DNA of 53,915 nucleotides. Source: Gemmatimonadota bacterium (lineage in GTDB: Bacteria; Gemmatimonadota; Gemmatimonadetes; Longimicrobiales; Gaopeijiaceae). The position numbers and the translations under genes were made by a program. The stretch's first letter is position 1; each line of letters opens with the position of its first letter. The notes beneath the pieces were generated by a model. It had not been told where the DNA came from. It made no database searches and worked only from the letters and a program-made list of their open reading frames with translations. The stretch covers positions 1 through 53,915 of the forward strand of contig JAJDVT010000073.1 in assembly GCA_022826005.1 (NCBI GenBank), in the 5' to 3' direction. Below, in pieces: positions 260 to 40,178 of this stretch.

Positions 260-988
260 CTAGAGCTTGCCCAGAAGATCCAGGATGCGGAGCCGCCAGA
301 CGCGCCAAACGGCCTCGATGATGATGCTTCTGGACATCTTCGATTCCCCGCTGTCCCGTTCCGTGAAGATGATCGGCACTTCACACAGCGTGAAGCCCGC
401 GCGCCACGCACGCAGCTTCAGCTCGATCTGGAAGCTGTAGCCGTTCGACTCGATCCGGTCGAGGCCGATGGCTTCGATGACCCGCCTGCGAAACGCGTTG
501 AATCCGCCTGTGGCGTCGTTCACCGGCAGGCGGGTGATGATTCGGGCGTACCAGGACCCGAACAGGCTGATGAGCAGACGGGACATCGGCCAGTTCACCA
601 CCGTGATGCGGCCGCCGACGTACCGGGACCCCACCGCCACGTCGGCCCCGTCCAGCGCTGCGACGAGCTGGGGCAACATGTCGGGCGGGTGGGACAGATC
701 CGCGTCCATCTCGATCAGGATGTCGAAATCCCCCTCGAGTCCACGGCGGAGTCCGGCGACGTAGGCGGCACCCAGGCCCATCTTGCCGGCCCGGTGCAAC
801 ACGTCGACCCGGTCGCTCCCGGCCGCGAGCTCGTCGGCCACCCTGCCCGTCCCGTCGGGGGAATTGTCGTCCACCACCAATACGTGGAAGCGATTCCCCT
901 GCGCCAGAATCAGCGGCACGACCCGCGGAAGGCTCTCGCGCTCGTTGTAGGTGGGTACGATGACCAGCACGCGGGCGGCCGGGTTCAT
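260..988 (-). CDS. family 2 glycosyltransferase, polyprenol-phosphate sugar synthase (DPM1-like)
   Basis: A 242-residue soluble GT2 protein of the dolichol-phosphate mannose synthase type. It probably moves a sugar from a nucleotide-sugar onto polyprenyl phosphate at the inner face of the cytoplasmic membrane. Visible motifs are the N-terminal VPTYNE, VVDDNSPDGT at 38-47 and the metal-binding DAD in EMDADLSHPP near 93-102; the C-terminal ERDSGESKMS is typical of the family. There is no C-terminal membrane domain, so it is the short form. Its ATG overlaps the stop of the upstream gene by four bases, and it is the last gene of a three-gene set with a flippase-like protein and a YfhO protein. 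The family is clear; the sugar is unknown. Confidence 0.88.
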   Translation of the reverse strand: MNPAARVLVIVPTYNERESLPRVVPLILAQGNRFHVLVVDDNSPDGTGRVADELAAGSDRVDVLHRAGKMGLGAAYVAGLRRGLEGDFDILIEMDADLSHPPDMLPQLVAALDGADVAVGSRYVGGRITVVNWPMSRLLISLFGSWYARIITRLPVNDATGGFNAFRRRVIEAIGLDRIESNGYSFQIELKLRAWRAGFTLCEVPIIFTERDSGESKMSRSIIIEAVWRVWRLRILDLLGKL

Positions 989-2001
989 GACGCCTCTGCC
1001 GTGGAGTCACCCTGTGGGGCCGGCGCAGCCGGGCGGACCGGCGGCTTCGCCGGCCCCGGTTTCCGCAGGAGCATTGCGCCGGCCACCGCTGCGCTGAACT
1101 CGGCGCCGGTGAGCCAGACGCGCTGTAGTGCGGCCAGCACGAAGGCGGGCGAGGGTCCCAGGGTTGGGGTAAGCAGAAACACCAGCGAGCCTTCGCGGAC
1201 GCCGATGCCGGCGGGCGCAAAGATCGCGATGTAACCGGCCAGATAGGCGGCTGCGAAGGCCGTCGAAGCGAACCATAGTGGAATCTGCATCCCCAGGCCG
1301 AGTCCCAGGCACTTGAACGCGACACCAAGGAGGAGCCAGTTGACGACGTAGGCGGGAAGCCACCTCAAGAGGCGCCATCCCCCTGTGGCGGGGACTTCGC
1401 TGTCGTGCCCGAGCCGCCGGAAAACCCAGCGCATCAGGGCCCCCGCCCCGCCCAGACCGAGGAAGCCGACCATGGCCAGAACCGCGCCGATCCCGGCGAG
1501 AAGACTCCAAACCTCCGCGGGATAGGCCCCGTATACGACCCACCCCCCCAGGAGGGCTGCCGCCGTCAGGTTCAGAACCTGTGCGACGATTGCCGCGCCG
1601 GTCGCTCGAACCCCCGACAAGCCGGCGCGGCGGGCGAGAACGGCCACTCCGGCCAGCTGGGCCACCTTGGTGGGGATGTACCGGCCCAGATTCGCGACGA
1701 GCAGCATGGCGGCGGCCTGCATGATCGGGGGCGGCGACTCCCCGAGGGCCGCCATCACCCGCGACCACAGCGCGGCCGCCATGGCGAAGGTGCCCAGGAG
1801 GAGGAGCAGCGAGACCGCCAGCCATGGCACGTCCAACTCCACCACGGTCCAGTCGACGGTCCGGGCCTCCGCCAACGTGAACCCCGCGCCGCGCAGAATC
1901 AGCCAGGTTACGCCGACGGTGAGCACCACCTTGGCGGCCAGCAGCCACCATCGCCGAGCGCCCGTGCGGCCGGGTTTCGTGTCTTCCCGGGGGGACGTCA
2001 T
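985..2001 (-). CDS. flippase-like integral membrane protein (lysylphosphatidylglycerol synthase TM-region family)
   Basis: A 338-residue polytopic membrane protein of the UPF0104 / LPG-synthase transmembrane family. Members are hydrophobic multi-helix proteins, some of which move lipid or lipid-linked substrates. About eight hydrophobic segments are visible, with the family-typical AANLGRYIPTKVAQL near the second third and GIGVREGSLVFLL towards the end. The frame is open further upstream, but the start at 2001 is chosen because its ATG overlaps the preceding TGA (ATGA, 1998-2001) and the first residues (MTSPRED) lead into the first helix after a basic stretch. The next gene overlaps its stop in the same way. 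Its setting between YfhO and a GT2 suggests a role in lipid-linked sugar traffic, which is inference. Confidence 0.8.
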   Translation of the reverse strand: MTSPREDTKPGRTGARRWWLLAAKVVLTVGVTWLILRGAGFTLAEARTVDWTVVELDVPWLAVSLLLLLGTFAMAAALWSRVMAALGESPPPIMQAAAMLLVANLGRYIPTKVAQLAGVAVLARRAGLSGVRATGAAIVAQVLNLTAAALLGGWVVYGAYPAEVWSLLAGIGAVLAMVGFLGLGGAGALMRWVFRRLGHDSEVPATGGWRLLRWLPAYVVNWLLLGVAFKCLGLGLGMQIPLWFASTAFAAAYLAGYIAIFAPAGIGVREGSLVFLLTPTLGPSPAFVLAALQRVWLTGAEFSAAVAGAMLLRKPGPAKPPVRPAAPAPQGDSTAEAS

Positions 2002-4469
2002 CCGGCGCCGTGCCTGCCCCGCAACCGGTCGGCAAGGCCATGCAGCCAGGGGGAGGCCAGGAGCAGCAGGGTCACAGCCGCGGCCGCCACGCTGATGAGG
2101 AGCGCACTTCGCACCGTCGGCGCAGTGAAGCGCAGGGTCACGGTGTGCTCCCCTGCCGCCGGGATCCTTACTGCCTGCAGGGTGAGGTTCACGCGTCGGA
2201 CCTCGGCGGGTTGCCCGTTGACTTCCGCGAGCCACCCGGGGAACCAGTTCTCCGAAATGACCAGCAGGGCGGGACCGGTGGTCTGCACCTTCAACGCTCG
2301 CGTGTCCGGTTCGAAGACGGTCCACTCGACCGGAGCCGCGCCCCTGCCGCCGACCTCCTCACCGAGGGCCGGCGGCGCCGCCAGGATCGCCTCCCGCGCG
2401 GGATCGAAGTCGGGTGCCAGGATCCGGGCCAGCGCGGCGTCATCGTCCTCCATGACGACCACCTCCTCCGCGATCCACGCGCGGTCCAGCCCCGGGTAGC
2501 CGTAGACGGCCTCGTCGCCGTAGCCGGTGCGCGCCGTGCTCACCGGCTGAGCGCCCGCGGGGAGGTTCCCCGACAGCACCACGTACTTGACGTTCATCAT
2601 CCGGAGGACGTTGGAGTTTGCGGTGTTGGCCCCCTGGGACTGGCTGCCCTGAAGACCGAGCAGCTTGCGATAGCGCGCCAGATCGTTGGGATGGTGACCG
2701 GCGACGATGTCGAGGCCGTACATCGCGAGATCGACGTTCTGGTCGTTGGTACCTCCATTGCGAAGGTCCGCAACCCGGAAGGGGGCTTCCGGCCCCTCGT
2801 CACGCCGTTGCTCCAGGAAGCGCGTATTCGCGGTGGGGGCCGCCCAGGCGTGGAAATCCCACATGCCGATGAAGGGCCGGTCGATCCGGCCCAGGTCGAT
2901 CGCGACGAGGACGGTGAGGGCGATCATCGCCGCCCTGAGGGGGATTCTCCCTGCCATCGCGGCCCACACCGCCGCACAGGTGAGGGCGCCCACGAACAGC
3001 GCGATCGCGAAGCCTCGGGTGATGAACGGAGCCGCCGCGGCGAGGGCGGCGAGCTTGCGGTCGCCGGCTTCCGGGTAGAGCGCAGTCGTCCAGAAGTCGG
3101 CCAGCATGCCGCCAGCCTGCAGAAGCAGCCCCAGCAGGAGCAACCCGAGGAAGCCCAGGAGCACCCGTCCCCGTCCGTCCCCCAGGAACCTGCCCGGCGA
3201 CGGCGACTTCCGCACCAGATCGTCAACACCCAGCGCGAACAGGGTGACGGCACCGAAATTCACCAGGAAGGCCGCGATCGCCGGAACACGAAACAGGGAC
3301 ATCCCGGGCACGACTTCGTAGAAAACGCGCCAGACCGGCGTGTGCGTGCCGAGCGCAAAGAGAAGCCACACGACTCCCATCCCGCCCATGAACCACCTCA
3401 ATCCCCTTCGGCGCCGCCCGAACAGCCCGAAGAGCGCCAGAATCAGCACGGACACGCCGATGTATTCGTGGTTGAGCTTGATGGAGTTCCTGCCCCAGTA
3501 GGTTCCCTGGGCCCAGTCCGCGTCGGCGCCCGAATTCCCCACGAATTCGGGGACCGCCAGCGCGACGACCTCTTCAGGGTGATAGGACCACGAACTGGAA
3601 TAGGCGATGGCCTCTTCGGGGGTGGTCTCCACGGTCGTGGCGACGCGGCGCGAATACTCGCCGACGTACTGGAAGGCCGGGAGCAGCTGGAACGTTGTGA
3701 GCCCGGCCCCAAGGATCGAACTGCCGAGAAACGCGCCCAGGACGAGGCTTGCGCGGAGGAGGCGCCGCCTCCGCCCGGCCGCCTCCCCTGCCCTCCACAT
3801 CTGAACCGTGCGGAAGACGGCGTAGGCACCCACCGACCCGAAGAGGTAGTACGCGGTCTGGAGCTGGGGCGTCAGAATGGTCAGCGCGACCGCGCCCGCG
3901 AGCCCCGCGGCCGTTCGCCCGCACGGCTTCTTCAGGACGGACTCCGCCGCCCAGAAGACCAGGGGCGTTAGCGCGGCCACCATGAGCTTCCCGTCGTTGC
4001 CGCCGAGCGTCAGCGTGACCATGACCGGCGCCATCAGCCAGGCCAGCCCCCCCAGCGTGGCGGCCGGGCGCCCAAGGCCCAGGCTGCGAGCCCACCCGTA
4101 CATGAAGAAGCCCCCGCCGAGCACATGCAGGACCAGCTTCCACCCGAGGGCGCGGTAGGTGTCGGTCAGGAAATAGAGAAGGCTGGTCGGGTAGATCGCG
4201 TCCCCTCCGGAGAGGGCCTCGAACATCGGCACCCCCCCGAGAAGGCGCGGGGCCCACAGAGGGAGGTCACCGGCCGTGAACTGCTCGGCCAGGAAGGCGC
4301 GGCCCATGTACCCCAGGGCCAGCGTGTCCGCGCCGTACAGCATCTGGTCGGAGAAGATGAAGTCGGCAAAGAGGATGATGGTTGCGAGCAGAAAGAGCCC
4401 CGCAGTCAGCCAGAGCGGCACCTGGAGCTCGTCTCCGACCGACCGACCGGAACTGCCTGGATGCCGCAT
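1998..4469 (-). CDS. YfhO-family membrane protein
   Basis: An 823-residue membrane protein with around a dozen hydrophobic segments and a C-terminal soluble part of about 250 residues, the layout of YfhO-like GT-C-fold proteins. Characterised relatives in Firmicutes transfer a sugar from a polyprenyl-phosphate carrier to a surface polymer outside the membrane. Early residues FADFIFSDQMLYGAD and the later NLTLQAVRIPAAGEHTVTLRF near the end are typical. The start at 4469 is preferred over an open-frame extension to 4619 because AGGGAGA lies about ten bases before the ATG and the protein then starts shortly before the first helix. It is the first gene of a tightly coupled three-gene operon. The acceptor is unknown. 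Confidence 0.82.
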   Translation of the reverse strand: MRHPGSSGRSVGDELQVPLWLTAGLFLLATIILFADFIFSDQMLYGADTLALGYMGRAFLAEQFTAGDLPLWAPRLLGGVPMFEALSGGDAIYPTSLLYFLTDTYRALGWKLVLHVLGGGFFMYGWARSLGLGRPAATLGGLAWLMAPVMVTLTLGGNDGKLMVAALTPLVFWAAESVLKKPCGRTAAGLAGAVALTILTPQLQTAYYLFGSVGAYAVFRTVQMWRAGEAAGRRRRLLRASLVLGAFLGSSILGAGLTTFQLLPAFQYVGEYSRRVATTVETTPEEAIAYSSSWSYHPEEVVALAVPEFVGNSGADADWAQGTYWGRNSIKLNHEYIGVSVLILALFGLFGRRRRGLRWFMGGMGVVWLLFALGTHTPVWRVFYEVVPGMSLFRVPAIAAFLVNFGAVTLFALGVDDLVRKSPSPGRFLGDGRGRVLLGFLGLLLLGLLLQAGGMLADFWTTALYPEAGDRKLAALAAAAPFITRGFAIALFVGALTCAAVWAAMAGRIPLRAAMIALTVLVAIDLGRIDRPFIGMWDFHAWAAPTANTRFLEQRRDEGPEAPFRVADLRNGGTNDQNVDLAMYGLDIVAGHHPNDLARYRKLLGLQGSQSQGANTANSNVLRMMNVKYVVLSGNLPAGAQPVSTARTGYGDEAVYGYPGLDRAWIAEEVVVMEDDDAALARILAPDFDPAREAILAAPPALGEEVGGRGAAPVEWTVFEPDTRALKVQTTGPALLVISENWFPGWLAEVNGQPAEVRRVNLTLQAVRIPAAGEHTVTLRFTAPTVRSALLISVAAAAVTLLLLASPWLHGLADRLRGRHGAG

Positions 4470-4726: not shown

Positions 4727-5170
4727 ATGACCCCCAAGTTGCAGGTCAATGACCTCCGAACGTCCAGGCTTACCGTGGACGAGGCGTCGATGCGAGCATT
4801 CGCGGAATTGTCGGGAGACACCAACCCGATCCACGTCGACGGGGACAGCGCGCGCGGGTCCGGCTTTCCGAGACGGGTTGCGTACGCAGGTCTTCTTCTC
4901 GCAGAGGTCAGCCGAATCATCGGAACCCGCATTCCGGGGCCGGGGTCTCTCTGTGTCTCGTACCAGTTCGACTTCAAGGCTCCCGTGCTCGTAGGCGAAT
5001 CGGTCCTGTTCGAAGTCACCGTCACCCACTACTCGGAGGCGGCGCGCGTGGCGCTCCTTGGATTCGTCGTCCGCCGGGAGCACGATCAGGAAATCGCGAT
5101 GGAGGGCTCGGCGACGGTCCGTATGCCGGTCGGCGACGGGTACGGGGATCACCTGGCCGCCGACGGCTGA
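4727..5170 (+). CDS. MaoC-like (R)-specific enoyl hydratase / hot-dog domain protein
   Basis: A 147-residue single hot-dog protein of the MaoC dehydratase family, which hydrates 2-enoyl thioesters. The catalytic signature is clear: SGDTNPIH (Asp and His of the dyad) followed by a Gly-rich stretch and the YAGLL helix. The ATG at 4727 gives the usual family length; the frame is open further upstream but has no plausible start there. It is eight bases before the FkbH-like gene, so co-transcription with FkbH, an acyl carrier protein and an acyltransferase is very likely. That suggests an acyl-ACP or acyl-CoA substrate in this cassette rather than general fatty-acid degradation; this is inference. 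Confidence 0.85.
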   Translation: MTPKLQVNDLRTSRLTVDEASMRAFAELSGDTNPIHVDGDSARGSGFPRRVAYAGLLLAEVSRIIGTRIPGPGSLCVSYQFDFKAPVLVGESVLFEVTVTHYSEAARVALLGFVVRREHDQEIAMEGSATVRMPVGDGYGDHLAADG

Positions 5171-5178
5171 AGCGCACG

Positions 5179-7023
5179 ATGGCCTCTTCGGAACCCGCAC
5201 GGCCCACGCGAGCCGGATACTGGAGCGAGCGCCTGCACAGGGCGGCTGCCAGGCTCGCCTCCAACCCGTCGCATGCCAGTGCGCACGAGGCCTACAATGC
5301 CGGCATGGAGGCGCCGGCCACGGTGGAGGGGTTCGTCTCCCTCAAATGCGCCGTCCTGCGAAATGTGACGGTGGAGCCGTGGCTGCCGGAGTTGTATGGC
5401 GCCCTCCTGCGGCGCGGCATCCACGCGAGGTTCCTGCTCGGCGACTACGCGGTCTACGAACGCTACGCGTCCGCTCCCTCCGACCTGGGGACTCCCACGC
5501 CGGATTGCTTCCTCGTCTGTCTGGACGCCGGGGTCCTTGCGGGCGACGCGCGCCACGATCCTCCGGCGGATATGGCAAACGCGGTGCTAGGGCGCATTTC
5601 GGGGATCGTGGGCGGCCTGGTCGAACGCACCAGCGCGAGCGTCGTCGTCACCAACCTGGCGCCGGAGCCGCATCCGGTTCACTCGGTGCATGGTGACCAG
5701 GATCCAGGAGGGTGGCCACACCTTCGCAGGACGGTGAACGCGGAGCTGACGGCCGCCCTGTCCGCGGAGCCGCGGGTATCGATTCTGGACATGGACCGGA
5801 TCGTCGGCGAGTTCGGGGCTTCCCGGGCATACGACACGCGCATGTACATGACCGCGGCCAGTCCCTTCGCGGTCGACTTCCTGCCGCACCTGGGGCGGGC
5901 GTTTGCCGCGACGGTCGCGGCCGCCGTCCTGTCTCCGAAGAAGTGTGTTGTCGTCGACTGCGACAATACGCTGTGGGGAGGCATCCTGGGCGAAGACGGC
6001 CCGGAAGGAGTCGCGATCGGGACGGACTACCCCGGGTCCGCGTACCGCGGGTTTCAGCTGTTCCTGGCCGGGCTCGCACGCAGGGGATTCCTCCTGGCCC
6101 TGAACAGCAAGAACAACGAGAGCGACGTGCTGTCGTTCATGCAGGACCGCCCGGAGATGGTCCTGCGGCCCGCCGATTTCGCGGCCTGCCGGATCAACTG
6201 GGAGGACAAGGCCGCCAACCTTGCGGAGCTCGCCCGGGAGCTGAACATCGGGCTCGATGCGATGGTCTTCATCGACGACAGCCCCTTCGAGTGTGAACGC
6301 GTGAAATCGGCGCTGCCGGAGGTTCAGGTTGAACGATTCCCCGCCAACCCCCTTGATATCCCGCGATATGTGTCCGCTATCCAGGGAGTCGAGCGGCTCA
6401 GCGTCGGGAAGGACGACCTTGCCCGCACAGAGTCCATCCGCGCCAACGCGAGCCGCGAGAGGCTCAGGAGGGGGGCTCCCGATCTGGATTCATTCCTCCG
6501 CAGCCTTTCGATCAGGCTGACGATCGCCCGGCAGGACCGGACCGCGGTACGACGGATCAGTGAACTCTGCCGGCGCACCAACCAGTTCAACCTGACGACC
6601 AGGAGATACGGAGTGGGCGACATCGAACGCCTCATGGACGAAGGCTTCGTCTACACCATGAGCATGAGGGACCGATTCTCGGACTATGGGACGATCGGCG
6701 TCGCCATCGTCGATACGGGTTCCGGGGAACGCTGGGAGATCGACTCCTTCATGTTGAGTTGCCGGGCATTCGGACGCAGGGTCGAAGTGGTGTTGCTCGA
6801 TGCGCTGCTGGAGGACGCCGGAGCGGCGGGCGTGCGGTCGGTCGGTGCCCGCCATATTGCCACCGAACGGAACGGAATGACACGCGACTTCTTTCCTGAG
6901 CACGGGTTCGCCGAAACGGAGGCGTCGGACGGCGAGACCCGGTTCGAGATCCGGACCGGCGCGGCCGCCGGACGTCGGCCGGAGGGTATCTGCGAGGTGC
7001 GGCGAGTGGAGTCTCCGGAATGA
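5179..7023 (+). CDS. FkbH-like HAD-superfamily protein
   Basis: A 614-residue protein of the long FkbH type. Residues 1-250 form an N-terminal region that in relatives resembles an SGNH-type fold. A HAD domain follows from about 255, with the nucleophile motif DCDNT near 259-263 and the family-typical LWGGILGEDG. A C-terminal GNAT-like region spans about 455-580 (TNQFNLTTRRY, then DRFSDYGTIGV). Known FkbH proteins dephosphorylate 1,3-bisphosphoglycerate and load the glyceryl unit onto an acyl carrier protein. Here the stop overlaps the start of an ACP gene by four bases, strong support for that partnership. The neighbours are a deacetylase-like protein and a hexapeptide acyltransferase instead of a polyketide synthase, so the final acceptor may be a glycan. 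Confidence 0.88.
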   Translation: MASSEPARPTRAGYWSERLHRAAARLASNPSHASAHEAYNAGMEAPATVEGFVSLKCAVLRNVTVEPWLPELYGALLRRGIHARFLLGDYAVYERYASAPSDLGTPTPDCFLVCLDAGVLAGDARHDPPADMANAVLGRISGIVGGLVERTSASVVVTNLAPEPHPVHSVHGDQDPGGWPHLRRTVNAELTAALSAEPRVSILDMDRIVGEFGASRAYDTRMYMTAASPFAVDFLPHLGRAFAATVAAAVLSPKKCVVVDCDNTLWGGILGEDGPEGVAIGTDYPGSAYRGFQLFLAGLARRGFLLALNSKNNESDVLSFMQDRPEMVLRPADFAACRINWEDKAANLAELARELNIGLDAMVFIDDSPFECERVKSALPEVQVERFPANPLDIPRYVSAIQGVERLSVGKDDLARTESIRANASRERLRRGAPDLDSFLRSLSIRLTIARQDRTAVRRISELCRRTNQFNLTTRRYGVGDIERLMDEGFVYTMSMRDRFSDYGTIGVAIVDTGSGERWEIDSFMLSCRAFGRRVEVVLLDALLEDAGAAGVRSVGARHIATERNGMTRDFFPEHGFAETEASDGETRFEIRTGAAAGRRPEGICEVRRVESPE

Positions 7024-7253
7024 GCGATAACACGGAAGCGACTCTGGAGAGGATCTTTCGGAGTGTGCTCAAGGTACATCCGGATGAGGACGTGGCTTCG
7101 GTGTCGGTCGAGTCGCATGGCTGGGACTCGGTCGCCCACCTGAATCTGATCCTCGCCGTCGAACAGGAGTTCCGGTTCATGATGACGCCGGAGGAGGCGT
7201 CCGCGGCGAATTCCTTCCGAGCGATGCTGGACCTGGTGAACAGCCGGCGATGA
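7020..7253 (+). CDS. dedicated acyl carrier protein
   Basis: A 77-residue acyl carrier protein with the phosphopantetheine attachment serine at position 37 in the motif GWDSVAHLNLI (the housekeeping ACP at 31628-31870 has [11 protein letters not shown]). The protein is acidic and fits a four-helix ACP. Its ATG lies inside the end of the FkbH-like gene (ATGA at 7020-7023), so the two should be translated in a fixed ratio. Clearly distinct from the fatty-acid AcpP encoded elsewhere in the window, it probably carries the group made by FkbH. Confidence 0.9.
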   Translation: MSDNTEATLERIFRSVLKVHPDEDVASVSVESHGWDSVAHLNLILAVEQEFRFMMTPEEASAANSFRAMLDLVNSRR

Positions 7254-7257
7254 GAAG

Positions 7258-8151
7258 GTGAGTACCGGGCGCAGCCGCGGTGTATTCGCACTTCGCTTCG
7301 ACGTGGATTCCGTAACCTGCCTCGAGCGCGGGGTTCCCACCCTGCTGAGGCTGGGCGAGCGCCACGGCGTACGTTTCACCTTCTTCGTGAACATGGGCCG
7401 CAGCTTCAGCTGGCGGCACACGGTCACTCGCGCGCTCAGGTCGAGGCGCACCAGGGCGACAGGTGAAGACGCCGGCCCCTCGCCCGCGAACAAGCTGTCG
7501 GCGGCGGCGAAGCTCGGACGGGGCGGCGTGCTGAAGACCGTGCTGATGAACCCGCGGCTGGGATGGCGCTATCGCCCAACCCTGGATGGCCTTTTTGAAG
7601 AGGGACACGAACTGGGACTGCACGGCGGCTCCAATCACGCCACCTGGCAGTACGCCCTCGATGAACTCGGCGAAGATGGTCTGGAGAGGCACGTCCGCCT
7701 GTCCTTCGCGGCCTTCCGGGATCGATACGGGCAGCCGAGCGGCTTCGCCAGCCCGGGCTTTCGCTACAACGAGGCGGTGCTGGACCTCATGGACAGGGAA
7801 GGCTTCAAGTACGCCTCGGACATGCCCGGGGAGCGGCCCTTCCGTCCACCCCGTCCCGGCGCGAGGCGCCGCTACGCGCACTTCCAGGTCCCGGTGAACG
7901 TGATCGGAGAGGGCAGTGTTCCCATGATCGAGCAGGGTGTCGCCCTTGGCCGGTCCAGTGCCCGCATTGTGCGGGACGCGGTGGAGCGGATCCACGAGCG
8001 GCAGTTTGCGCTGATGTACGGACATCCCTACGTCGAGGGCGTGCATTGGCGCCTTCTGGACGCCATTCTCACGGAGCTGACGGGCGACTACGAAGTCGTC
8101 ACCGTCGCCGAGTACCTGAGGCGCTGGAAGGAGACGGCAGACCATGGGTAA
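7258..8151 (+). CDS. polysaccharide deacetylase-like protein (NodB-homology fold)
   Basis: A 297-residue protein resembling NodB-homology deacetylases. The first motif is RFDVDS with Asp15 and Asp17. A second metal-site candidate is His122 and His127 in GLHGGSNH, spaced one residue wider than in the textbook H-S/T-x-x-H motif. SPGFRYNE and a C-terminal MYGHPYVEG match later motifs. It starts with GTG at 7258, four bases after the ACP stop, with GAGAAG just upstream. No signal peptide is evident, so it probably acts in the cytoplasm on a glycan precursor. The next gene starts inside its last codons. Substrate unknown. Confidence 0.75.
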   Translation: MSTGRSRGVFALRFDVDSVTCLERGVPTLLRLGERHGVRFTFFVNMGRSFSWRHTVTRALRSRRTRATGEDAGPSPANKLSAAAKLGRGGVLKTVLMNPRLGWRYRPTLDGLFEEGHELGLHGGSNHATWQYALDELGEDGLERHVRLSFAAFRDRYGQPSGFASPGFRYNEAVLDLMDREGFKYASDMPGERPFRPPRPGARRRYAHFQVPVNVIGEGSVPMIEQGVALGRSSARIVRDAVERIHERQFALMYGHPYVEGVHWRLLDAILTELTGDYEVVTVAEYLRRWKETADHG

Positions 8152-8605
8152 GGTCATTCGGTACCTGGCTTCCATGCTGCCGATCGGCCAGGGATTGCGT
8201 GCGCGTCTTTACGGCGTGAGCGGGCTCCGGGTCGGAGCGCTGACGATCATCGATCGGAATGTGCAAGTCACCAGGCCCGACATGGTCACGATTGGCTCGC
8301 GCGTCACGATCTGCAACGCGGTCTCGATCCTGGGGGAGGTGACGGCCGTACACTCCCGGCTGGAAACGGCGTACAGCCTGCGCAAGACGGAAGCGGTCGT
8401 GATCGAGGACGACGCCTACATCGGCGTCAAGGCAACGATCCTGCCGGGGGTCCGGATCGGGCGAATGGCCACGGTCGGGGCGAATACCCTTGTGATCGCC
8501 GATGTGCCGGACTACGGTGTCGTGCTGGGTGTCCCGGGGCGGGTCATGATGATTCGTCCCCACGGGGAGGATGCGGTCGCCGAAAGCGGCAGCGGTGGTT
8601 CATGA
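8144..8605 (+). CDS. left-handed beta-helix (hexapeptide) acyltransferase
   Basis: A 153-residue protein with hexapeptide-repeat character (VRPDMVTIGSRV-like coils, then VVIEDDAYIGVKATILPGVRIG and VGANTLVIADVPDYGVVLGVPGRV), the pattern of WcaF/serine acetyltransferase-type acyltransferases. These trimers transfer acetyl or other acyl groups from CoA or ACP donors to sugars or amines. Its ATG overlaps the end of the deacetylase-like gene by eight bases. As the last gene of the MaoC-FkbH-ACP operon it is the obvious candidate for moving the ACP-bound group to a sugar, but a normal acetyl-CoA enzyme is equally possible from sequence alone. Confidence 0.8.
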   Translation: MGKVIRYLASMLPIGQGLRARLYGVSGLRVGALTIIDRNVQVTRPDMVTIGSRVTICNAVSILGEVTAVHSRLETAYSLRKTEAVVIEDDAYIGVKATILPGVRIGRMATVGANTLVIADVPDYGVVLGVPGRVMMIRPHGEDAVAESGSGGS

Positions 8606-8776: not shown

Positions 8777-9631
8777 CTAGGGAAACCCCACGGCCAGCCG
8801 GGTCCCCTGGATCGCATGAACTTTCATCTCGTCCGCGAATTCGTCTACGGCCCGGCTGACATCCTCCAGCATGCCATAGTCGTGCCACACGATCACTCCG
8901 CCGGGCCGCACCACGCGTAGCGCGTTGCGCGTGTCGGCCAAGGCGTATTCGTAGGTGTGGCATCCATCGATCAGGATGAAGTCGAAGGGCGAGAACTCGT
9001 CCCAGTCGAACTGGGCGGAGTCTCCCCACAGCTGCCTGACCTTCCCGGCGTACCGCGACCCGATGAACTGCCTCCCAGTGTGGTGACCTGGTGCGGCGTT
9101 GTCGTGAATGTCCGGCACCTCCAGCCCGAAGGTCCCGCCCCAGCCGGGCGGCAGATCGAGCGTGTACACGCGGGCGTCCGCAGGTGCGTTCGCGGCAAGG
9201 TTGACGGTCGTGTTGCCCTCGAAGGTGCCGATCTCGAGCACGCGCCGGGGCTTGAGCGTGCGAACCATTGCTCCGATGGCCATCACCTCGGACGGGCTCA
9301 TTGACAGCAGGGGTTCCCGGTCGAAACAGCTGACGATCCGGACATCGGTGGACTCGATCCCCGGAAACACCGCATTCATCGGTTCCCGCTTCAGCTTCCC
9401 GAACGACCAGCGGATTGACCGGCGGAACTCGGGGTCCGGCGTTCGGGGCGCGAACGGCCCGTAACGCGGCCACAGCATCTTCCACGCCGTGATCGGGTTG
9501 CGGGCGCTCTTGGAGACGGCGTTCTTCAGGCGGCGGAGAATCTGGATTACACGGTTTCCTCCCCTGGCCTTTCGGCCTGACCAGACTGTGCGCGCTTCGC
9601 CCTCAGGTTTCGGTGTGCTGTCGACGGGCAC
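8777..9631 (-). CDS. class I SAM-dependent methyltransferase (Methyltransf_24 type)
   Basis: About 284 residues. The SAM-binding motif VLEIGTFEGNTT is followed by ARVYTLDLPP, and the later FDFILIDGCHTYEY and LRVVRPGGVIVWHDY match small-molecule or sugar methyltransferases of this type. The frame is open to an ATG at 9751, but the extra N-terminus is low in complexity and would translate across the AT-rich dyad at 9727-9755. I chose GTG 9631 because GGAGGGGAAGGGA precedes it. The gene faces the MaoC-FkbH operon and sits next to surface-glycan genes, so methylation of a glycan or secondary product is plausible. Substrate unknown; exact start uncertain. Confidence 0.72.
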   Translation of the reverse strand: MPVDSTPKPEGEARTVWSGRKARGGNRVIQILRRLKNAVSKSARNPITAWKMLWPRYGPFAPRTPDPEFRRSIRWSFGKLKREPMNAVFPGIESTDVRIVSCFDREPLLSMSPSEVMAIGAMVRTLKPRRVLEIGTFEGNTTVNLAANAPADARVYTLDLPPGWGGTFGLEVPDIHDNAAPGHHTGRQFIGSRYAGKVRQLWGDSAQFDWDEFSPFDFILIDGCHTYEYALADTRNALRVVRPGGVIVWHDYGMLEDVSRAVDEFADEMKVHAIQGTRLAVGFP

Positions 9632-9766: not shown

Positions 9767-10870
9767 TCACCCCGCCCCCAACTCCTCATACACCTCCAGG
9801 TGCCGGTCGACCAGGCGTTCGTTGCTCCACCGCGTCACCACGTTGCGGCGCCCGGCCGCGCCCCGCTCGGCGAGTCCGTCCGCCGACAGCAGTGCGAGCA
9901 CCTTCTCCGCCAGCCCCCCGGGGTCGCCGGGCGGGAAGAGCCCGCCCACCGGGTCGCCGACGATCTGGGGCAGCCCCCCCACCGCCGACGCCGCCACCGG
10001 GAGGCCGCACGCCATGCACTCGAGCGCCGCCACCGAGGTGGCCTCCATCAGCGAGGGGAAGATCGCCAGATCCGCCGAGCACAGCAGCCCCGGCATCTCG
10101 GCGTGGGGCCGCGCACCGAGGAACTCGATCCGCCCGGCCACGCCGAGTTCGCGCGCGAGGCCTTCCAGCATCTCGCGGTCCGGGCCGTCGCCCACGACGA
10201 TGGCTTCGACATCGGCCCGTGCGGTGATCAGGGGCATCGCCCGCACGAAGAACTCGACGCCGTTCTTGGGGAAGAGCCGTCTGGGGACCACCAGGCGCCA
10301 GCGCCGCTCCCCGCGGGGGTGCGTGCCGGGAACCGGCCGGAAGATGCCGGTCTCCACCCCGTTCACCAGGACCTCCACGGAGATCGAGGGGCCCAGGGCC
10401 TCGCCCACATCGGCGATCTCCCTGCTGGCCGCGAAATTGTAGTCGCTGAGCTCGATCAGCTTGCCGAGCGCGGGGGCGGTGAGGGGGTTGGCGGCGAGCC
10501 GCAGGAAGTGCGAGGTGTGGAGCGTGCAGACCAGTGGGGTGCCGCTTCCGGCCAGCGCCAGCGAGCAGGGCAGGATCGAGGGGAAGGCCTGGGCGTGGAC
10601 GACGTCGGCCTCCTGCACCGCCGCGCGCGTGCGCGGGGTCGACCCGGCCGCGTGAACGAACCATCCCCACGGGGTCCGTGCCGGCAACGGGGTGCGGTAG
10701 ACGCAGATACCGTCCATCTCCTCGAACGCGGGGAGCCCGGGCTGCGAGAGCGACGTCACGACCGTGACCCGGTGCCCGCGCCGGACCAGCCCCCGGCACA
10801 GGTAGTGCACATGGCTCTCCAGCCCCCCGACCTCGGGCGGAAAGTACACGCAGTGCTGAACGATCTTCAC
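9767..10870 (-). CDS. family 4 glycosyltransferase
   Basis: A 367-residue GT4 (GT-B fold) glycosyltransferase. The N-terminal acceptor domain starts MKIVQHCVYFPPEVGGLESHV, and the C-terminal donor domain has the nucleotide-sugar signature PSLMEATSVAALECMACGLPVAA with the E-x7-E glutamates, then GGLPQIVGD. It begins with GTG at 10870, overlapping the TGA of the UDP-GlcNAc 2-epimerase gene by four bases. With that epimerase and the GT2 upstream it probably builds a surface polysaccharide or glycolipid, acting in the cytoplasm at the membrane. Donor and acceptor unknown. Confidence 0.88.
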   Translation of the reverse strand: MKIVQHCVYFPPEVGGLESHVHYLCRGLVRRGHRVTVVTSLSQPGLPAFEEMDGICVYRTPLPARTPWGWFVHAAGSTPRTRAAVQEADVVHAQAFPSILPCSLALAGSGTPLVCTLHTSHFLRLAANPLTAPALGKLIELSDYNFAASREIADVGEALGPSISVEVLVNGVETGIFRPVPGTHPRGERRWRLVVPRRLFPKNGVEFFVRAMPLITARADVEAIVVGDGPDREMLEGLARELGVAGRIEFLGARPHAEMPGLLCSADLAIFPSLMEATSVAALECMACGLPVAASAVGGLPQIVGDPVGGLFPPGDPGGLAEKVLALLSADGLAERGAAGRRNVVTRWSNERLVDRHLEVYEELGAG

Positions 10871-12030
10871 GCTCCCGCCCAGTCCGGCATCTCGCGCGGC
10901 GACCCGGTCAGCGCGGCCATGAGCACATCGGCGATGCGCTCGCCCGCCCGCCCATCCCCGTAGGGATTGCGCACCGGCGGGCCCCCGTCGCCCCCCGCCA
11001 GCCTCCGCGCGGCCTCCGCCACGATGCGGCCGGGATCCGTGCCCACCAGGGTGGCCGCCCGCGCCTCCACGGCCTCGGGGCGCTCGGTGACCTCCCGGAG
11101 CACCAGCGTGTGGACCTCGAAGGTCGGTGCCTCCTCCTGGATCCCCCCGGAATCGGTCAGGACCAGGCTGGCGCGGCGCAGGACGGCGAGCAGGTCGCCG
11201 TAGCTCAGCGGGTCGACCAGGTGGATGCGCGGCCGCGCCCCCAGGATGCGCCGGGCGGGCCCCAGAACCCGCGGATTGGGGTGCACCGGGTAGACGATCT
11301 CGACATCCGGGAAGCGTTCCGCGATCTCGGCCACCGCACGGAAGACGCCCTCGAGCGGGGTGCCGAACGACTCGCGCCGGTGCGCCGTGAGGAGGACGAG
11401 GCGCCGCGGGGAGGTCGGAGCCAGGGCGTCCAGAAGCCGCGCAACCCGGGCGTCCTCCACCGCCGGCGGACGTTCACGCACCTCCAGGAGGGCGTCGACA
11501 ACGGTGTTGCCGGTGACGAAAATGCGCTCCGGTTCGACCCCCTCCGCCGCAAGGTTGGCCGCGGCCGCGGGCGTCGGCGCGAAGCAGAAATCGGAGATCG
11601 TGTCGGTCATGCGGCGCAGCATCTCCTCCGGGAATGGCGACCACTTGCGGCGGCTGCGCAGCCCCGCCTCGACGTGGGCCAGCCTGCCCTGCTGAAAGAA
11701 GGTCACCAGCCCCGCAAAGAAGACCGTGGCCGTGTCGCCCTGGACGATCGTCACATCCGGGCGGAAGTCCGCGGCGACCCCGCGCAGGCCGTCCATGCAG
11801 GCATGGCCGATGTCGTAGAGGCTCTGCCCCGGTTTCATGAGTTCGAGGTCGTAGTCCGCCTCCAGGCCGAAGACGGCGAGCACCTGGCCGACCATGTCCG
11901 TGTGCTGGCCGGTGAGCGCGAGCCTGTGAGTGCAGCCGCCCTTCCGGCCCAGCGCCCGGACTACCGGAGCCATCTTGATCGCCTCGGGGCGCGTGCCGAC
12001 CACGGAGAGGATCCGGGGCGTCCCGCTCAC
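10867..12030 (-). CDS. wecB: UDP-N-acetylglucosamine 2-epimerase (non-hydrolysing)
   Basis: A 387-residue enzyme of the WecB/MnaA family, which interconverts UDP-GlcNAc and UDP-ManNAc in the cytoplasm. Family marks are GTRPEAIKMAPV at the N-terminus, VQGDTATVFFAGL, HVEAGLRS, VTGNTVVDAL, LTAHRRESFG and LTDSGGIQEEAP. The open frame runs on to 12792, but GTG at 12030 overlaps the upstream TGA by four bases and gives the family's normal length. No UDP-ManNAc dehydrogenase lies beside it, so ManNAc itself may be used by the adjacent glycosyltransferases. Confidence 0.93.
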   Translation of the reverse strand: MSGTPRILSVVGTRPEAIKMAPVVRALGRKGGCTHRLALTGQHTDMVGQVLAVFGLEADYDLELMKPGQSLYDIGHACMDGLRGVAADFRPDVTIVQGDTATVFFAGLVTFFQQGRLAHVEAGLRSRRKWSPFPEEMLRRMTDTISDFCFAPTPAAAANLAAEGVEPERIFVTGNTVVDALLEVRERPPAVEDARVARLLDALAPTSPRRLVLLTAHRRESFGTPLEGVFRAVAEIAERFPDVEIVYPVHPNPRVLGPARRILGARPRIHLVDPLSYGDLLAVLRRASLVLTDSGGIQEEAPTFEVHTLVLREVTERPEAVEARAATLVGTDPGRIVAEAARRLAGGDGGPPVRNPYGDGRAGERIADVLMAALTGSPREMPDWAGA

Positions 12031-13073
12031 CCGGCCTCCCGCCCGCCGTTCGCCCCGCCCGCACGCTCGCGGCGCAGTGCATCGAGCTCGTCGTGCACCG
12101 AAGAGATCATCTCGCCGAGGAACCCGGCCAGGAAGCAGAGCACCCCCACAGTGACGAGCAGCACCACAAGATAGAGGAGCGGCCGGAACCCCAGGCCCAT
12201 CGCGTACCGCAGATAGAGCGCGACAAGTCCCGCCGTCCCGCCCGCCACCATCAGCAGCAGTCCCGGGATCCCGAATGCCACCATCGGCTTGCGCGAGAAG
12301 CGGAGCTGGAACCAGACGGCCACCAGGTCGAGCACGCCCCCCACCACCCTGCTCTTGCCGGAGTACTTCGCTTCCCCCGCCCGTCGGGGGTGCAGCTCGA
12401 TGTCGATCTCGGTCACGCTGAAGCCCTTCTTGTGCGCGAGCACCACGAAGAAGCGGTGCCAGTCGTGCCGCAGCCGCACGGCGCGGAGCACATCGGCCCG
12501 GAACGCCTTCATGGAGTTGAGGTCGCTCACCGGCACCCGGAAGATCATCCGGCTCAGCGCGTTGTAGATCGACGACACGGCCCGCTTGTCGTACCGCCCC
12601 ACCTTTCTGCCCGTGACGATGTCCCATCCTTCCCCCAGCTTGTCGAGAAAGCGGGGAATCTCGGCCGGCAGGTGCTGCAGGTCGGCGTCGAAGAGGACGA
12701 GGTGCTTCCGGCGGGTCGCCTCCGCGGCGGTGAGCAGAGCTTCCGTCTTGCCGAGGTTGACGCGATGCCTCAGGACCCGAAGCCGGTCCCACCCTCCCGC
12801 CTGTTCCTCGGCCAGGGCCGCAGTGCCGTCGCTCGATCCGTCGTCCACCAGCACGATTTCGCCCTCCAGGCCGTATTCCTTGAAGGCGGCGCGCAGTTCC
12901 GGGATCAGGTGCGGGATGTTGGGCGCTTCGTTGTAGGCCGGGACCACCAGCGCGAAATCGCTGTAGACCCCGGCTCTGTGCGGCGGGTCCGCACTTCGCG
13001 AAAGTGCTGCTCCGGCGCCGTCGCCGGCCACCTCGCCGCCGCCGCCAACGCCCTTCCCCGCCCTGCTAGACAC
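12027..13073 (-). CDS. family 2 glycosyltransferase with C-terminal membrane helices
   Basis: A 348-residue GT2 protein of the DPM1/GtrB type. The catalytic domain has VVPAYNEAPNI, VLVDDGSSDGT and FDADLQHLP; two strong hydrophobic helices follow near residues 250-330, then a basic tail. Such enzymes make polyprenyl-phosphate sugars or transfer to lipid-linked acceptors at the inner membrane. Its first eight bases overlap the end of rpoN, so it is the first of three glycan genes in the same transcription direction as the LPS block. The first 30 residues are Gly/Ala-rich and not conserved in type, so a start slightly downstream is possible. Confidence 0.85.
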   Translation of the reverse strand: MSSRAGKGVGGGGEVAGDGAGAALSRSADPPHRAGVYSDFALVVPAYNEAPNIPHLIPELRAAFKEYGLEGEIVLVDDGSSDGTAALAEEQAGGWDRLRVLRHRVNLGKTEALLTAAEATRRKHLVLFDADLQHLPAEIPRFLDKLGEGWDIVTGRKVGRYDKRAVSSIYNALSRMIFRVPVSDLNSMKAFRADVLRAVRLRHDWHRFFVVLAHKKGFSVTEIDIELHPRRAGEAKYSGKSRVVGGVLDLVAVWFQLRFSRKPMVAFGIPGLLLMVAGGTAGLVALYLRYAMGLGFRPLLYLVVLLVTVGVLCFLAGFLGEMISSVHDELDALRRERAGGANGGREAG

Positions 13074-17460: not shown

Positions 17461-18023
17461 CCGCCTTCCTTCGGTGCGTCGATCCTGAGGTCGTTGAAGG
17501 ACAGATCGGTCTGGAATCCGTCGCCTGTGACCCGGCATCCTCCCCGCTCCATGCGCACGGGCACATGCGTCCAGATCCGGTCCGCCTCCAGGTCGAAGAA
17601 GAGCTCCTCGGCCTCGATCTCGCGGGCCTCGTTCAGTTCGTCGGCGGGAACGCTGAGCAGCGCACTGCCATATGCCCACAACTCCTGGCTGACTTCGCTC
17701 ATCCTTCCCGCGTCGGCGGTCACGGTGCCCTTCGCCCGGCCCCGTTCGTCGAAGAGAGTCAGCGTGAGACCGTAGATCCGCTGGTGCGTCGAGTCCTGCC
17801 ACATGTAGACGGTGTCGGCGTCGAGCATCCCTTCCTGGATACCGTCCCGGGTGAAGTTGATCGAGATGTTGTAGAGGACGTTGTCGGCGGCAATCTCCTC
17901 CAGTTCGGTCAGCGGCCCCTCTTCGCCACCGGTCGTACAACCCGCAGCCGCCGGGAGCAGGGAAAGGCAGAGGAACCCAGGCCAGGCAAGCCTGCGGGTC
18001 CCGGGGGGTCGGCAAGTCTCCAT
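17445..18023 (-). CDS. lptC: LptC-like lipoprotein
   Basis: A 192-residue protein with a lipoprotein signal (LSLLPAAAGC, lipidated Cys29) followed by an LptC-type domain: DNVLYNISINFTRDGIQEGMLDADTVYM, then repeated short strands ending in RVTGDGFQTDLSFNDLRI. LptC receives LPS from LptBFG and hands it to LptA. The classic E. coli protein has a membrane anchor, whereas this one looks lipidated, a form seen in other phyla. ATG 18023 shares one base with the kdsD stop. The open frame extends upstream through kdsD and is not used. Confidence 0.8.
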   Translation of the reverse strand: METCRPPGTRRLAWPGFLCLSLLPAAAGCTTGGEEGPLTELEEIAADNVLYNISINFTRDGIQEGMLDADTVYMWQDSTHQRIYGLTLTLFDERGRAKGTVTADAGRMSEVSQELWAYGSALLSVPADELNEAREIEAEELFFDLEADRIWTHVPVRMERGGCRVTGDGFQTDLSFNDLRIDAPKEGGCDES

Positions 18024-19027
18024 CAGATCACTCCGGCTCGCAGAAGGTCGTGCAGGTGGACGATGCCCTCCAGGCCCGAGTCGCCAACGACCGGCAGGGC
18101 CATCACGCCGTATTCCTCCATGCGGCGCAGTGCCGTGGCGCCCAGTTCGTCGGGGCGGGCGATCCTGGGCGTGCGGGTCATGAAGGCGGAGACGGCGACG
18201 CCGAGGAAGTCGTCCGTGCGTTCCATCAGGCGGGCGACATCCCCGGCGGTGACCACGCCCACGAGCGCGTTGGCACGGTCGATGACCGGCACCGTCCCCC
18301 GCATGCGGGCCAGCGGCACGATCACGTCCCGTACCGTAGCCTCCCCCTGCACGGCGGGGTAGTCCTCGGCCACCATCACGTCGCATACCCGCAGGGTCAG
18401 GCGGCGTCCCAGCGAGCCGCCCGGGTGGAGGCGAGCGAAGTCGGCCGGGCGGAATCCCCGGCGGCGCAGCAGCGCCACCGCCAGCGCGTCGCCCATGGCA
18501 AGGGTCGCGGTGGTGGACGAAGTCGGTGCCAGGTCCATCGGACAGGCTTCCCCGGCGACGCCGCAGTCGAGCACGGCGGCGGCGCGCCTGGCCAGCGGCG
18601 ACCCGGTGTCGCCCACCAGCGCCACCACCGGCAGGCCGCGGAGTTCGGCGAAGGCCAGCAGGCCCGTCAGCTCTTCCGTGGCGCCGCTCCTGGAGAGCAG
18701 GACCAGGACGCTGCCGGGGCTCGCGATCCCCACGTCGCCGTGCAGCCCGTCGACCGGGTGCAGGAAGACTGCCGGCGTGCCGGTCGAGGTCAGGGTGGCG
18801 GCCACCTTGCGCGCGATCAGTCCGGACTTCCCCACGCCTGACAGGACCACCATCCCGTCCCGGGAGCAGATCAGGTCCACGGCGCGCAGGAACCCGTCCC
18901 CGAGGCGGGGGCCCAGCGCGGCAACCGCCTCGGCTTCCATGCGGAGCACGCGGCGCGCCTCGCCCAGGACCTTCTCGCTTCCGGCCACGGGCTGCACCTC
19001 AGCCGCCGCGCTCGCGACAGTATTCAT
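18023..19027 (-). CDS. kdsD: arabinose-5-phosphate isomerase
   Basis: A 334-residue KpsF/KdsD-type enzyme: an N-terminal SIS domain (SGVGKSGLIARKVAATLTSTG, then HGDVG and LLSRSGATEEL) and two C-terminal CBS domains (DVMVAEDYPAV, then PVIDRANALVGVVTAGDVARL). It converts ribulose-5-phosphate to arabinose-5-phosphate, the first step towards KDO. It overlaps kdsC upstream by 29 bases if the first ATG is used; a later start would still keep the SIS domain. It belongs to the KDO/LPS operon. Confidence 0.93.
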   Translation of the reverse strand: MNTVASAAAEVQPVAGSEKVLGEARRVLRMEAEAVAALGPRLGDGFLRAVDLICSRDGMVVLSGVGKSGLIARKVAATLTSTGTPAVFLHPVDGLHGDVGIASPGSVLVLLSRSGATEELTGLLAFAELRGLPVVALVGDTGSPLARRAAAVLDCGVAGEACPMDLAPTSSTTATLAMGDALAVALLRRRGFRPADFARLHPGGSLGRRLTLRVCDVMVAEDYPAVQGEATVRDVIVPLARMRGTVPVIDRANALVGVVTAGDVARLMERTDDFLGVAVSAFMTRTPRIARPDELGATALRRMEEYGVMALPVVGDSGLEGIVHLHDLLRAGVI

Positions 19028-38762: not shown

Positions 38763-40178
38763 ATGAGACCACACAGACCCCGCAGGAGAGACAACCGACA
38801 CCCCCACCGGTTCGGACGCGCCGCCTGGGCCGCAGTGCTCGCGCTGGGCGTCCTCGCGATCTGGCCCGCGGCGGCGGCCGCCCAGAACACCGCGGCCGAA
38901 ACCGGCTTCGTCCTCAACACCTACTCCTTCCTGGTGTGGGGGGCGCTGGTCATGTGGATGTGCGCCGGCTTCACCATGCTGGAGTCCGGATCGGTCCGCT
39001 CCAAGAACGCGTCGATGATCTGCCTCAAGAACATCGGACTCTACTCGATCGCCGGACTGGCCTACTACATCATCGGCTACGGGTTGATGTACACCGACGT
39101 GGGCGGAGGCGTCATCGGGAAGCTCAACCTCTTCTACGGTCCGTCGGCCGACGAGATTGCGCTCCTGGACGGGAACGAGGGGGCGATGGGCGCCGTGCTG
39201 GAAAACGGCTACTCCGTCACCTCGGACTGGTTCTTCCAGATGGTCTTCGTCGCCACCACGGCATCGATCATATCCGGGGCGCTGGCGGAGCGGGTCAACC
39301 TCTGGGCCTTCTTCGCCTTCACCGCCGTCCTCACCGGGGTGATCTACCCGGTAGTGGGAGCGTGGACCTGGGGAGAGGGCTGGCTCAACGTGATGGGCTT
39401 CCAGGACTTCGCCGGGTCGACCATCGTGCACTCGACCGGAGGCTGGGCGGCGCTGGCGGGCCTGATCGTGGTCGGGCCGCGCTGGGGCAAGTTCCGCAAG
39501 GACGGCACGGTCAAGTCCACGCCGCCCTCCAACATCCCCGGCGTTACGCTCGGCGTCTTCATTCTGTGGCTCGGCTGGTTCGGGTTCAACGGGGGGTCGG
39601 TGCTGGCCCTCGACGGGGCGGCCAACGCGGTGCTCATGAGCAACGTCCTGGTCAACACCAACCTGGCCGCGGCGGCGGGAGTCATCACGGCCATCCTGGT
39701 GTCCAAGCCCATCCTCGGCCGCATCGACCTCTTCGCGGGACTCAACGGAGCGATCTCGGGACTGGTGGCCATCACCGCCGGACCCGACATCGTTGACGCA
39801 CGCATGGCGATCGCAATCGGCGCGATCGGGGCGCTGATCTGCACCGCGGGCCTGAAGATCCTGGAACGCTTCCGGGTGGACGACGTGGTCGGCGCCGTGC
39901 CGGCCCACCTCTTCGCCGGAATCTGGGGCACGCTGGCCGTGAGCTTCGGCGACTGGGACAAACTGGGCGTGCAGGCGCTCGGAATCGTGAGCATCGGCGC
40001 CTTCGTGTTCACCGTATCGTGGATCCTCTGGACCGTGCTCGACAAGACGATGGGGGCGCGAGTCTCCCGAGACGTGGAGGAGATGGGTCAGGATGCGGCC
40101 GAGCTGGGCATCGACGCCTACCCCGAGTTCGTGCTGATGGTCGATCCGGACGACGGCAGCGACTACCGCGATCCGTAA
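38763..40178 (+). CDS. amt: ammonium transporter
   Basis: A 471-residue Amt/Rh-family channel with a signal-like N-terminus (LAIWPAAAAAQ) and about eleven hydrophobic helices. Family marks are FVLNTYSFLVWGALVMWMCAGFTMLE, SIISGALAERVN, DFAGSTIVHSTGG with the first pore His and VPAHLFAGIWG with the second. The cytoplasmic tail (MGQDAAELGIDAYPEF) fits a GlnK-gated form, but no glnK is nearby. It precedes the ATP-grasp gene by 37 bases on the same strand, so co-transcription is likely. Confidence 0.94.
   Translation: MRPHRPRRRDNRHPHRFGRAAWAAVLALGVLAIWPAAAAAQNTAAETGFVLNTYSFLVWGALVMWMCAGFTMLESGSVRSKNASMICLKNIGLYSIAGLAYYIIGYGLMYTDVGGGVIGKLNLFYGPSADEIALLDGNEGAMGAVLENGYSVTSDWFFQMVFVATTASIISGALAERVNLWAFFAFTAVLTGVIYPVVGAWTWGEGWLNVMGFQDFAGSTIVHSTGGWAALAGLIVVGPRWGKFRKDGTVKSTPPSNIPGVTLGVFILWLGWFGFNGGSVLALDGAANAVLMSNVLVNTNLAAAAGVITAILVSKPILGRIDLFAGLNGAISGLVAITAGPDIVDARMAIAIGAIGALICTAGLKILERFRVDDVVGAVPAHLFAGIWGTLAVSFGDWDKLGVQALGIVSIGAFVFTVSWILWTVLDKTMGARVSRDVEEMGQDAAELGIDAYPEFVLMVDPDDGSDYRDP

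Follow-up and report, generated by a model that had tools for sequence, protein, structure and literature searches.

Relationship to described systems

FkbH-like enzymes and acyl carrier proteins (ACPs) are known to form glyceryl-ACP (PMC7489565), and in polyketide and tetronate pathways the glyceryl unit has been shown, or is proposed, to be loaded from 1,3-bisphosphoglycerate (PMC7489565, PMC3679948). The glyceramido-acetamido-trideoxyhexose (GATDH) of Neisseria is made by PglB2, which has an ATP-grasp domain (PMC11130364), and the dimethylglyceryl pseudaminic acid of Campylobacter depends on Cj1295 (PMC3068675). NaxD, functionally similar to ArnD, acts on undecaprenyl-phosphate-linked sugars (PMC10927774). 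Here, a 53,915-nucleotide stretch from a Gemmatimonadota bacterium of the family Gaopeijiaceae (assembly GCA_022826005.1, contig JAJDVT010000073.1; one entire contig, hereafter the window) is described. Across positions 4727-8605 it carries five plus-strand genes, encoding in order a MaoC-like protein, an FkbH-like protein, an ACP, a deacetylase and a hexapeptide transferase (Table 1). We regard it as an even prospect that these genes form an optional acyl-exchange cassette in a glycosylation operon linked to lipopolysaccharide (LPS) and 3-deoxy-D-manno-octulosonic acid (Kdo), in which an amino sugar would be deacylated and then re-acylated with an ACP-borne group.

Compared with the methoxymalonyl-ACP and tetronate glyceryl-ACP pathways, the cassette likewise has an FkbH-like enzyme, a stand-alone ACP and an O-methyltransferase, with the same catalytic residues. 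However, it lacks the dehydrogenases, FabH-like protein and polyketide synthase, its acceptor genes are of glycan type and it has an optional MaoC gene instead; neither of the two methoxymalonyl-pathway dehydrogenases was found in the cassette of the window or among the conserved cassette genes of relatives. With the Arn (4-amino-4-deoxy-L-arabinose, Ara4N) and NaxD (galactosamine, GalN) lipid A pathways the locus shares an ArnC-like family 2 glycosyltransferase (GT2), an ArnD-like deacylase, a GT-C-type membrane protein and an LPS-operon setting. It differs from them in that the deacylase and GT2 score far under the ArnD and ArnC cut-offs, a YfhO-like protein stands in place of ArnT, no ArnEF was seen and the amine is predicted to be re-acylated rather than left free.

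Multi-component transmembrane glycosylation systems have been reviewed (PMC8035078), and the YfhO-like protein completes a layout that resembles them. As in CsbB-GtcA-YfhO, a GT2 with a C-terminal membrane part accompanies a YfhO-like GT-C; here, however, an LPG_synthase_TM protein is found rather than a GtrA flippase, and the acyl-exchange cassette is additional. The predicted product would resemble those of PglB2 and Cj1295 in bearing a glyceryl or methylated glyceryl group on a surface amino sugar, so the chemistry of the putative N-glyceryl product has precedent in bacterial glycans. The enzymes are different: PglB2 employs its ATP-grasp domain, Cj1295 is another type of protein, and FkbH is mentioned for neither in the available sections of those reports.

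Composition and co-inheritance of the cassette

A sequence-only reading of the window had proposed that the five genes encode an ACP-borne modification pathway for a glycan. Gene calls and family matches agree with the order that it gave, and spacing within the run is -8 to +8 bases. The fkbH and ACP genes overlap by four bases as it reported (7020-7023); the deacetylase gene has a GTG start and follows the ACP gene after a gap of four bases, while the hexapeptide transferase gene overlaps it by eight. Orthologs of all five genes occur in relatives, with ratios of nonsynonymous to synonymous substitution (dN/dS) of 0.09-0.29 for each gene in comparisons with three or four related genomes; the genes are therefore not chance open reading frames and are under purifying selection.

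The strongest evidence that the cassette is one functional unit is that its genes are gained and lost together. Its distribution was followed among 121 genomes of the family, 23 of them from the same genus; several of the relatives' genomes are fragmented metagenome assemblies. The hexapeptide transferase is present in 12 of the 121, and the deacetylase (at least 50% identity) and close FkbH relatives (50-100% identity) were identified in the same 12 genomes, the three genes lying near one another in each. The ACP gene occurs in exactly the 10 genus genomes that hold other cassette genes. The proposed five-gene unit stands for FkbH, ACP, deacetylase and transferase, a set present in 12 of the 121 family genomes. 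It does not for MaoC: 8 of 13 cassettes have it intact, one has a fragment and four lack it, its catalytic motif GDTNPIH being invariant in eight orthologs; MaoC is not a core member, and its absence or decay in 5 of the 13 led us to reject it as an essential step. The sequence-only reading had also missed an O-methyltransferase gene (8777-9631) convergent with the five-gene operon. This type was found in 10 of the 12 cassette genomes and in none of the other 109 family genomes, and it belongs to the cassette; in the two exceptions the contig ends just past the cassette (G014) or the genome is rearranged (G035).

A second, different methyltransferase (L046, 8591-9427) is located upstream of FkbH in three relatives and also occurs without the cassette in two genomes. 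In several relatives a leucine-rich-repeat lipoprotein-like gene lies directly 3' of the hexapeptide gene (L042, 12384-13145; L038, 19056-19826). It is absent from the window, where no convincing remnant was found, and was not counted as part of the cassette.

Insertion site in the core operon

The core block of the genus has the order lptA-like, lptB, rpoN, GT2, wecB, family 4 glycosyltransferase (GT4), YfhO-like, LPG_synthase_TM-like and DPM1-like, and continues in the window with LptC, kdsD-like (SIS and CBS domains), kdsC-like (HAD), kdsA-like (DAHP synthase family), CTP synthase and kdsB-like genes. By family assignment, this continuation would serve Kdo synthesis and LPS export, while WecB points to a supply of N-acetylhexosamine. 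The surface-sugar setting noted earlier is thereby made specific: a Kdo/Lpt operon with ArnC-like GT2 and YfhO-like GT-C genes. The core GT2 matches the ArnC model at 102.7 bits over residues 26-318, below the equivalog cut-off of 529, and the YfhO-like gene is present in all 23 genus genomes.

The cassette lies between the GT4 and YfhO genes, on the strand opposite to the core operon, and is absent from 13 of the 23 genus genomes. Of these 13 genomes, nine have GT4 and YfhO side by side (at a distance of 33 bp in the complete genome G017), three have a lone methyltransferase gene between them (including the complete genome G002) and in one the contig ends there. On a tree of six core genes, in which some rows are incomplete, at least four gain or loss events are required, and the cassette genes therefore move as a unit. 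The two cassette-free genomes that retain the second methyltransferase nest inside a cassette-bearing clade of this tree.

In two cassette-free genomes an unrelated class I methyltransferase sits at the GT4-YfhO position (L062, 10409-11119; L063, 7545-8255), which therefore resembles a hotspot for genes of glycan modification. In G091 the core operon is rearranged (L039, 6499-19998): one side of the cassette has YfhO, the other just an N-terminal fragment of it (17933-18208).

The ArnD-like deacylase and its substrate

ArnD is a lipid-linked aminosugar deformylase acting on undecaprenyl-phosphate-linked sugars. The cassette deacetylase scores 63.9 bits against the NCBIfam ArnD model, whose equivalog cut-off is 382, and is therefore not an ArnD ortholog. 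ArnD (PDB accession no. 8t0j) is the only strong PDB match to the deacetylase family profile (65.5 bits). Using the AlphaFold model of the protein (predicted local distance difference test, pLDDT, 86.4; predicted template modelling score 0.87), 8t0j ranked first both in Foldseek (E 2e-13) and in VIA-align (Z 26.5 over 240 residues, root-mean-square deviation 2.5; next structure Z 22.9). The carbohydrate esterase family 4 (CE4) fold, catalytic Asp and metal Asp/His are present, D15, D17, H122 and H127 being invariant across orthologs, and by eye no signal peptide was visible at the N-terminus. Given this resemblance to ArnD, the predicted substrate is likely a polyprenyl-phosphate-linked or otherwise lipid-linked sugar. 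The earlier suggestion of deacetylation followed by ACP-borne transfer is partly supported by the inheritance of deacylase, ACP loader and acyltransferase as a block, and is refined by the ArnD-like character of the deacetylase.

Relatives of this protein are found with other partners. In another genus (g7), the gene between wecB and GT4 in this operon encodes an ArnD-like protein (34-35% identical), and a formyltransferase-like gene (Formyl_trans_N, 40.3 bits) comes next, at a locus without FkbH, ACP or hexapeptide genes; the same pairing occurs on a Woesebacteria contig. Most simply, the deacetylase would free an amine for re-acylation by varying partners, one adding a formyl group and another an ACP-borne group. 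Relatives in Gemmatimonadales and Woeseiaceae have the order GT4-deacetylase-wecB, and GT4-ArnD-like-WecB is the commonest arrangement outside the genus. Those in Pseudomonas, Hahella and Sumerlaeia are accompanied by GT2, wecB-like and LPG_synthase_TM-type genes, the last family being judged by eye from sequence. A scan of genome contigs with two short motifs, which was not exhaustive, found no match to the cassette FkbH at ArnD-like loci outside Gemmatimonadota, and the deacetylase had no match on plasmids. In Gemmatimonadota of another family (L112, 4323-9060; L113; L115), ArnC-like, formyltransferase-like, ArnD-like and hexapeptide-like genes are clustered, perhaps as a true Arn-type cluster.

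A variant of the proposed acyl exchange that differs in substrate is possible, though we would not expect it to prevail: the sugar would be the N-acetylhexosamine of a glycan built by GT4 and WecB, not an ArnC-type polyprenyl-phosphate monosaccharide, and the exchange would occur on a lipid-linked oligosaccharide or glycolipid, as with MshA/MshB or BshA/BshB, followed by acylation. The prevalence of GT4-ArnD-like-WecB outside the genus agrees with this, as does BshA being the best NCBIfam model for the GT4 (99.0 bits). However, the deacylase is nearest in both fold and sequence to ArnD, with its undecaprenyl-phosphate-linked substrate, and an ArnC-like GT2 is encoded in the same operon.

FkbH and the acyl carrier protein

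The cassette FkbH is a member of TIGR01686 and its catalytic motifs (DxDNT, K, DD and the invariant Cys of SCR) are intact; D260, D262, K344, D366, D367 and C528 are invariant in 24 FkbH homologs, two of which come from Streptomyces loci with polyketide synthase or beta-ketoacyl-ACP synthase III genes. The ACP belongs to the PP-binding family and its WDS motif is invariant in 13 orthologs. By analogy with the polyketide and tetronate enzymes, the cassette FkbH would probably load glyceryl from 1,3-bisphosphoglycerate onto this ACP.

Phylogenetic analysis placed the cassette FkbHs next to the FkbH of another Gemmatimonadota genome (support 96/94) rather than with the two Streptomyces FkbHs. This nearest non-cassette FkbH has a glycan-cluster setting, being adjoined by genes for a glyoxalase-like protein, a PglD-like N-acyltransferase and an initial sugar transferase (Bac_transf). 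Elsewhere, FkbH-ACP pairs were identified beside a hexapeptide transferase and polysaccharide flippase, beside MBOAT and VOC-family genes with capsule export genes near on pSymB of Sinorhizobium meliloti (L105, 5657-10692), beside MBOAT, acyltransferase and VOC-family genes on a Rhodobacteraceae plasmid (L106, 7059-12846) and, in Niveispirillum, next to a WcbI-family gene. FkbH thus recurs in glycan settings. The genome-neighbourhood comparison suggested by the sequence-only reading recovered the FkbH-deacetylase-transferase block in 12 of 121 family genomes. The weight that this reading gave to FkbH and ACP without a polyketide synthase was overstated: the combination is not unique, and other Gemmatimonadota and rhizobia have the pair beside surface-polysaccharide acyltransferase genes.

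The S. meliloti and Rhodobacteraceae loci apparently represent a second, O-acylation type of FkbH-glycan cluster. They bear on an unlikely alternative for the window, namely that the ACP-borne group is placed on a glycan hydroxyl and the deacylase acts separately, giving two independent decorations in one cassette. O-acetyltransferases, which would suit such a role, are numerous among the best NCBIfam and PDB relatives of the hexapeptide transferase. Yet the deacylase and transferase always co-occur, with overlapping genes in the window, and elsewhere the deacylase is paired with a formyltransferase-like gene, of a class that acts on amines.

The hexapeptide transferase and points against acyl exchange

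Several observations weigh against acyl exchange by this cassette. Hexapeptide repeats are present in the transferase, but the usual catalytic His is not: no His is invariant in 12 orthologs, the catalytic column in a HMMER alignment to LacA-type enzymes holds an invariant Thr67, and the nearby H70 is H, N or S. The AlphaFold model (mean pLDDT 59.2) is too low in confidence to settle the active-site geometry. Some left-handed beta-helix N-acyltransferases, such as QdtC, are reported to need no protein base, and for this reason the missing His does not exclude transferase activity, although that activity may be atypical or lacking; the absence of the His calls for more caution than any other point. 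In addition, 2 of 13 cassettes carry a broken deacetylase gene, and FkbH could use a different acyl phosphate. ArnD-like relatives elsewhere stand without FkbH, so that deacylation by itself may be the more ancient role, and a flippase role for the LPG_synthase_TM protein is a guess.

The two broken deacetylase genes are split between frames in G070 (L042, 11008-11900) and internally deleted in the second cassette of G125 (L041, 2741-3371), with the adjoining genes open. Together with the lack of a conserved His, they would fit a non-catalytic hexapeptide protein in a cassette that leaves the amine free, giving a cationic surface as GalN or Ara4N does, or that is in decay. We consider this improbable, as purifying selection acts on both the transferase (dN/dS 0.09-0.14) and FkbH (about 0.2).

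A small-molecule pathway lying by chance in the LPS operon is the least credible explanation: FkbH, ACP and O-methyltransferase recall methoxymalonyl-ACP formation, but the cassettes lack a polyketide synthase and both dehydrogenases, are inserted at a fixed place within the Kdo/glycosyltransferase operon and carry an FkbH that groups with the glycan-cluster homolog. A polyketide or tetronate pathway was rejected, there being no polyketide synthase, FabH-like protein or dehydrogenase in the cassettes; as the sequence-only reading had stated, no polyketide synthase was found among the window genes searched.

Proposed pathway

Under the acyl-exchange reading, the core ArnC-like GT2, WecB and GT4 would make a lipid-linked glycan containing N-acetylhexosamine, from which the ArnD-like deacylase would strip the N-acyl (acetyl) group on the cytoplasmic side. 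FkbH would take glyceryl phosphate from 1,3-bisphosphoglycerate, dephosphorylate it and place the glyceryl group on the ACP, as FkbH biochemistry suggests. The O-methyltransferase may methylate the ACP-borne group, since its relatives are O-methyltransferases. The hexapeptide transferase would then transfer this group onto the exposed amine. After flipping of the modified sugar, the YfhO-like GT-C would attach it on the outer side of the cell, perhaps to LPS. The glyceryl identity, the sugar and the acceptor are those that we infer.

More tentatively, and with somewhat less than even confidence, we propose that glyceramido-type amino sugars, possibly O-methylated, are made by a new route: ArnD-like deacetylation of a lipid-linked N-acetyl sugar followed by re-acylation from FkbH-made glyceryl-ACP, encoded by a swappable LPS cassette with a formyl counterpart elsewhere. 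The enzyme families are known. Their combination seems undescribed: as the sequence-only reading had held, no description of this layout was found in the open-licence literature, where searches for FkbH with O-antigen, for glyceric acid with polysaccharide and for HAD-IIIC returned no glycan pathway, a weak negative limited to open-licence papers. If the proposal is true, the glyceryl-ACP chemistry of polyketides extends into surface-glycan assembly, N-glyceryl amino sugars can be made by an enzymatic route other than the ATP-grasp one of Neisseria, and an LPS-linked sugar has its acyl groups exchanged as an evolutionary cassette. It also draws attention to the many FkbH-ACP pairs next to glycan acyltransferases whose sole annotation is 'HAD-IIIC family phosphatase'.

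Features of the window

Table 1. Cassette genes and adjoining core-operon genes in the window (bit scores, with cut-offs in brackets where given)
Feature	Coordinates	Strand	Support
MaoC-like (R)-hydratase, optional cassette member	4727..5170	+	Pfam MaoC_dehydratas 57.2 bits (27)
FkbH-like HAD-IIIC acyltransferase/phosphatase	5179..7023	+	TIGR01686 283.9 bits (curated cut-off 146.65); Pfam FkbH_N 33.6 (27)
Stand-alone acyl carrier protein	7020..7253	+	Pfam PP-binding 24.8 bits (20.8); phosphopantetheine serine in WDS
ArnD-like CE4 deacylase	7258..8151	+	Polysacc_deac_1 24.3 bits (23.1); best NCBIfam model ArnD
Left-handed beta-helix (hexapeptide) acyltransferase	8144..8605	+	Pfam Hexapep PF00132 30.4 bits (27)
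Class I S-adenosylmethionine (SAM) O-methyltransferase, start codon uncertain	8777..9631	-	Methyltransf_24 70.1 bits; Methyltransf_3 23.9 bits
GT4 glycosyltransferase, core operon, flank of insertion site	9767..10870	-	Pfam
WecB, UDP-GlcNAc 2-epimerase, core operon	10867..12030	-	TIGR00236 400.8 bits (210.15)
ArnC-like GT2, proposed polyprenyl-phosphate sugar synthase, core operon	12027..13031	-	Best NCBIfam model ArnC
YfhO-like membrane protein, proposed GT-C transferase, other flank	1998..4469	-	Pfam YfhO 35.6 bits
LPG_synthase_TM family membrane protein, possible flippase or accessory	985..2001	-	Pfam PF03706 47.0 bits
DPM1-like GT2 glycosyltransferase	260..988	-	Pfam Glycos_transf_2 109.9 bits

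Away from the cassette, genes for a circularly permuted ATP-grasp protein, an Alpha-E protein and a transglutaminase-like protein lie in a row at 40216-43726, directly after an ammonium transporter gene (38835-40178). A phage-type integrase gene is located at 51043-52191, close to the contig end.

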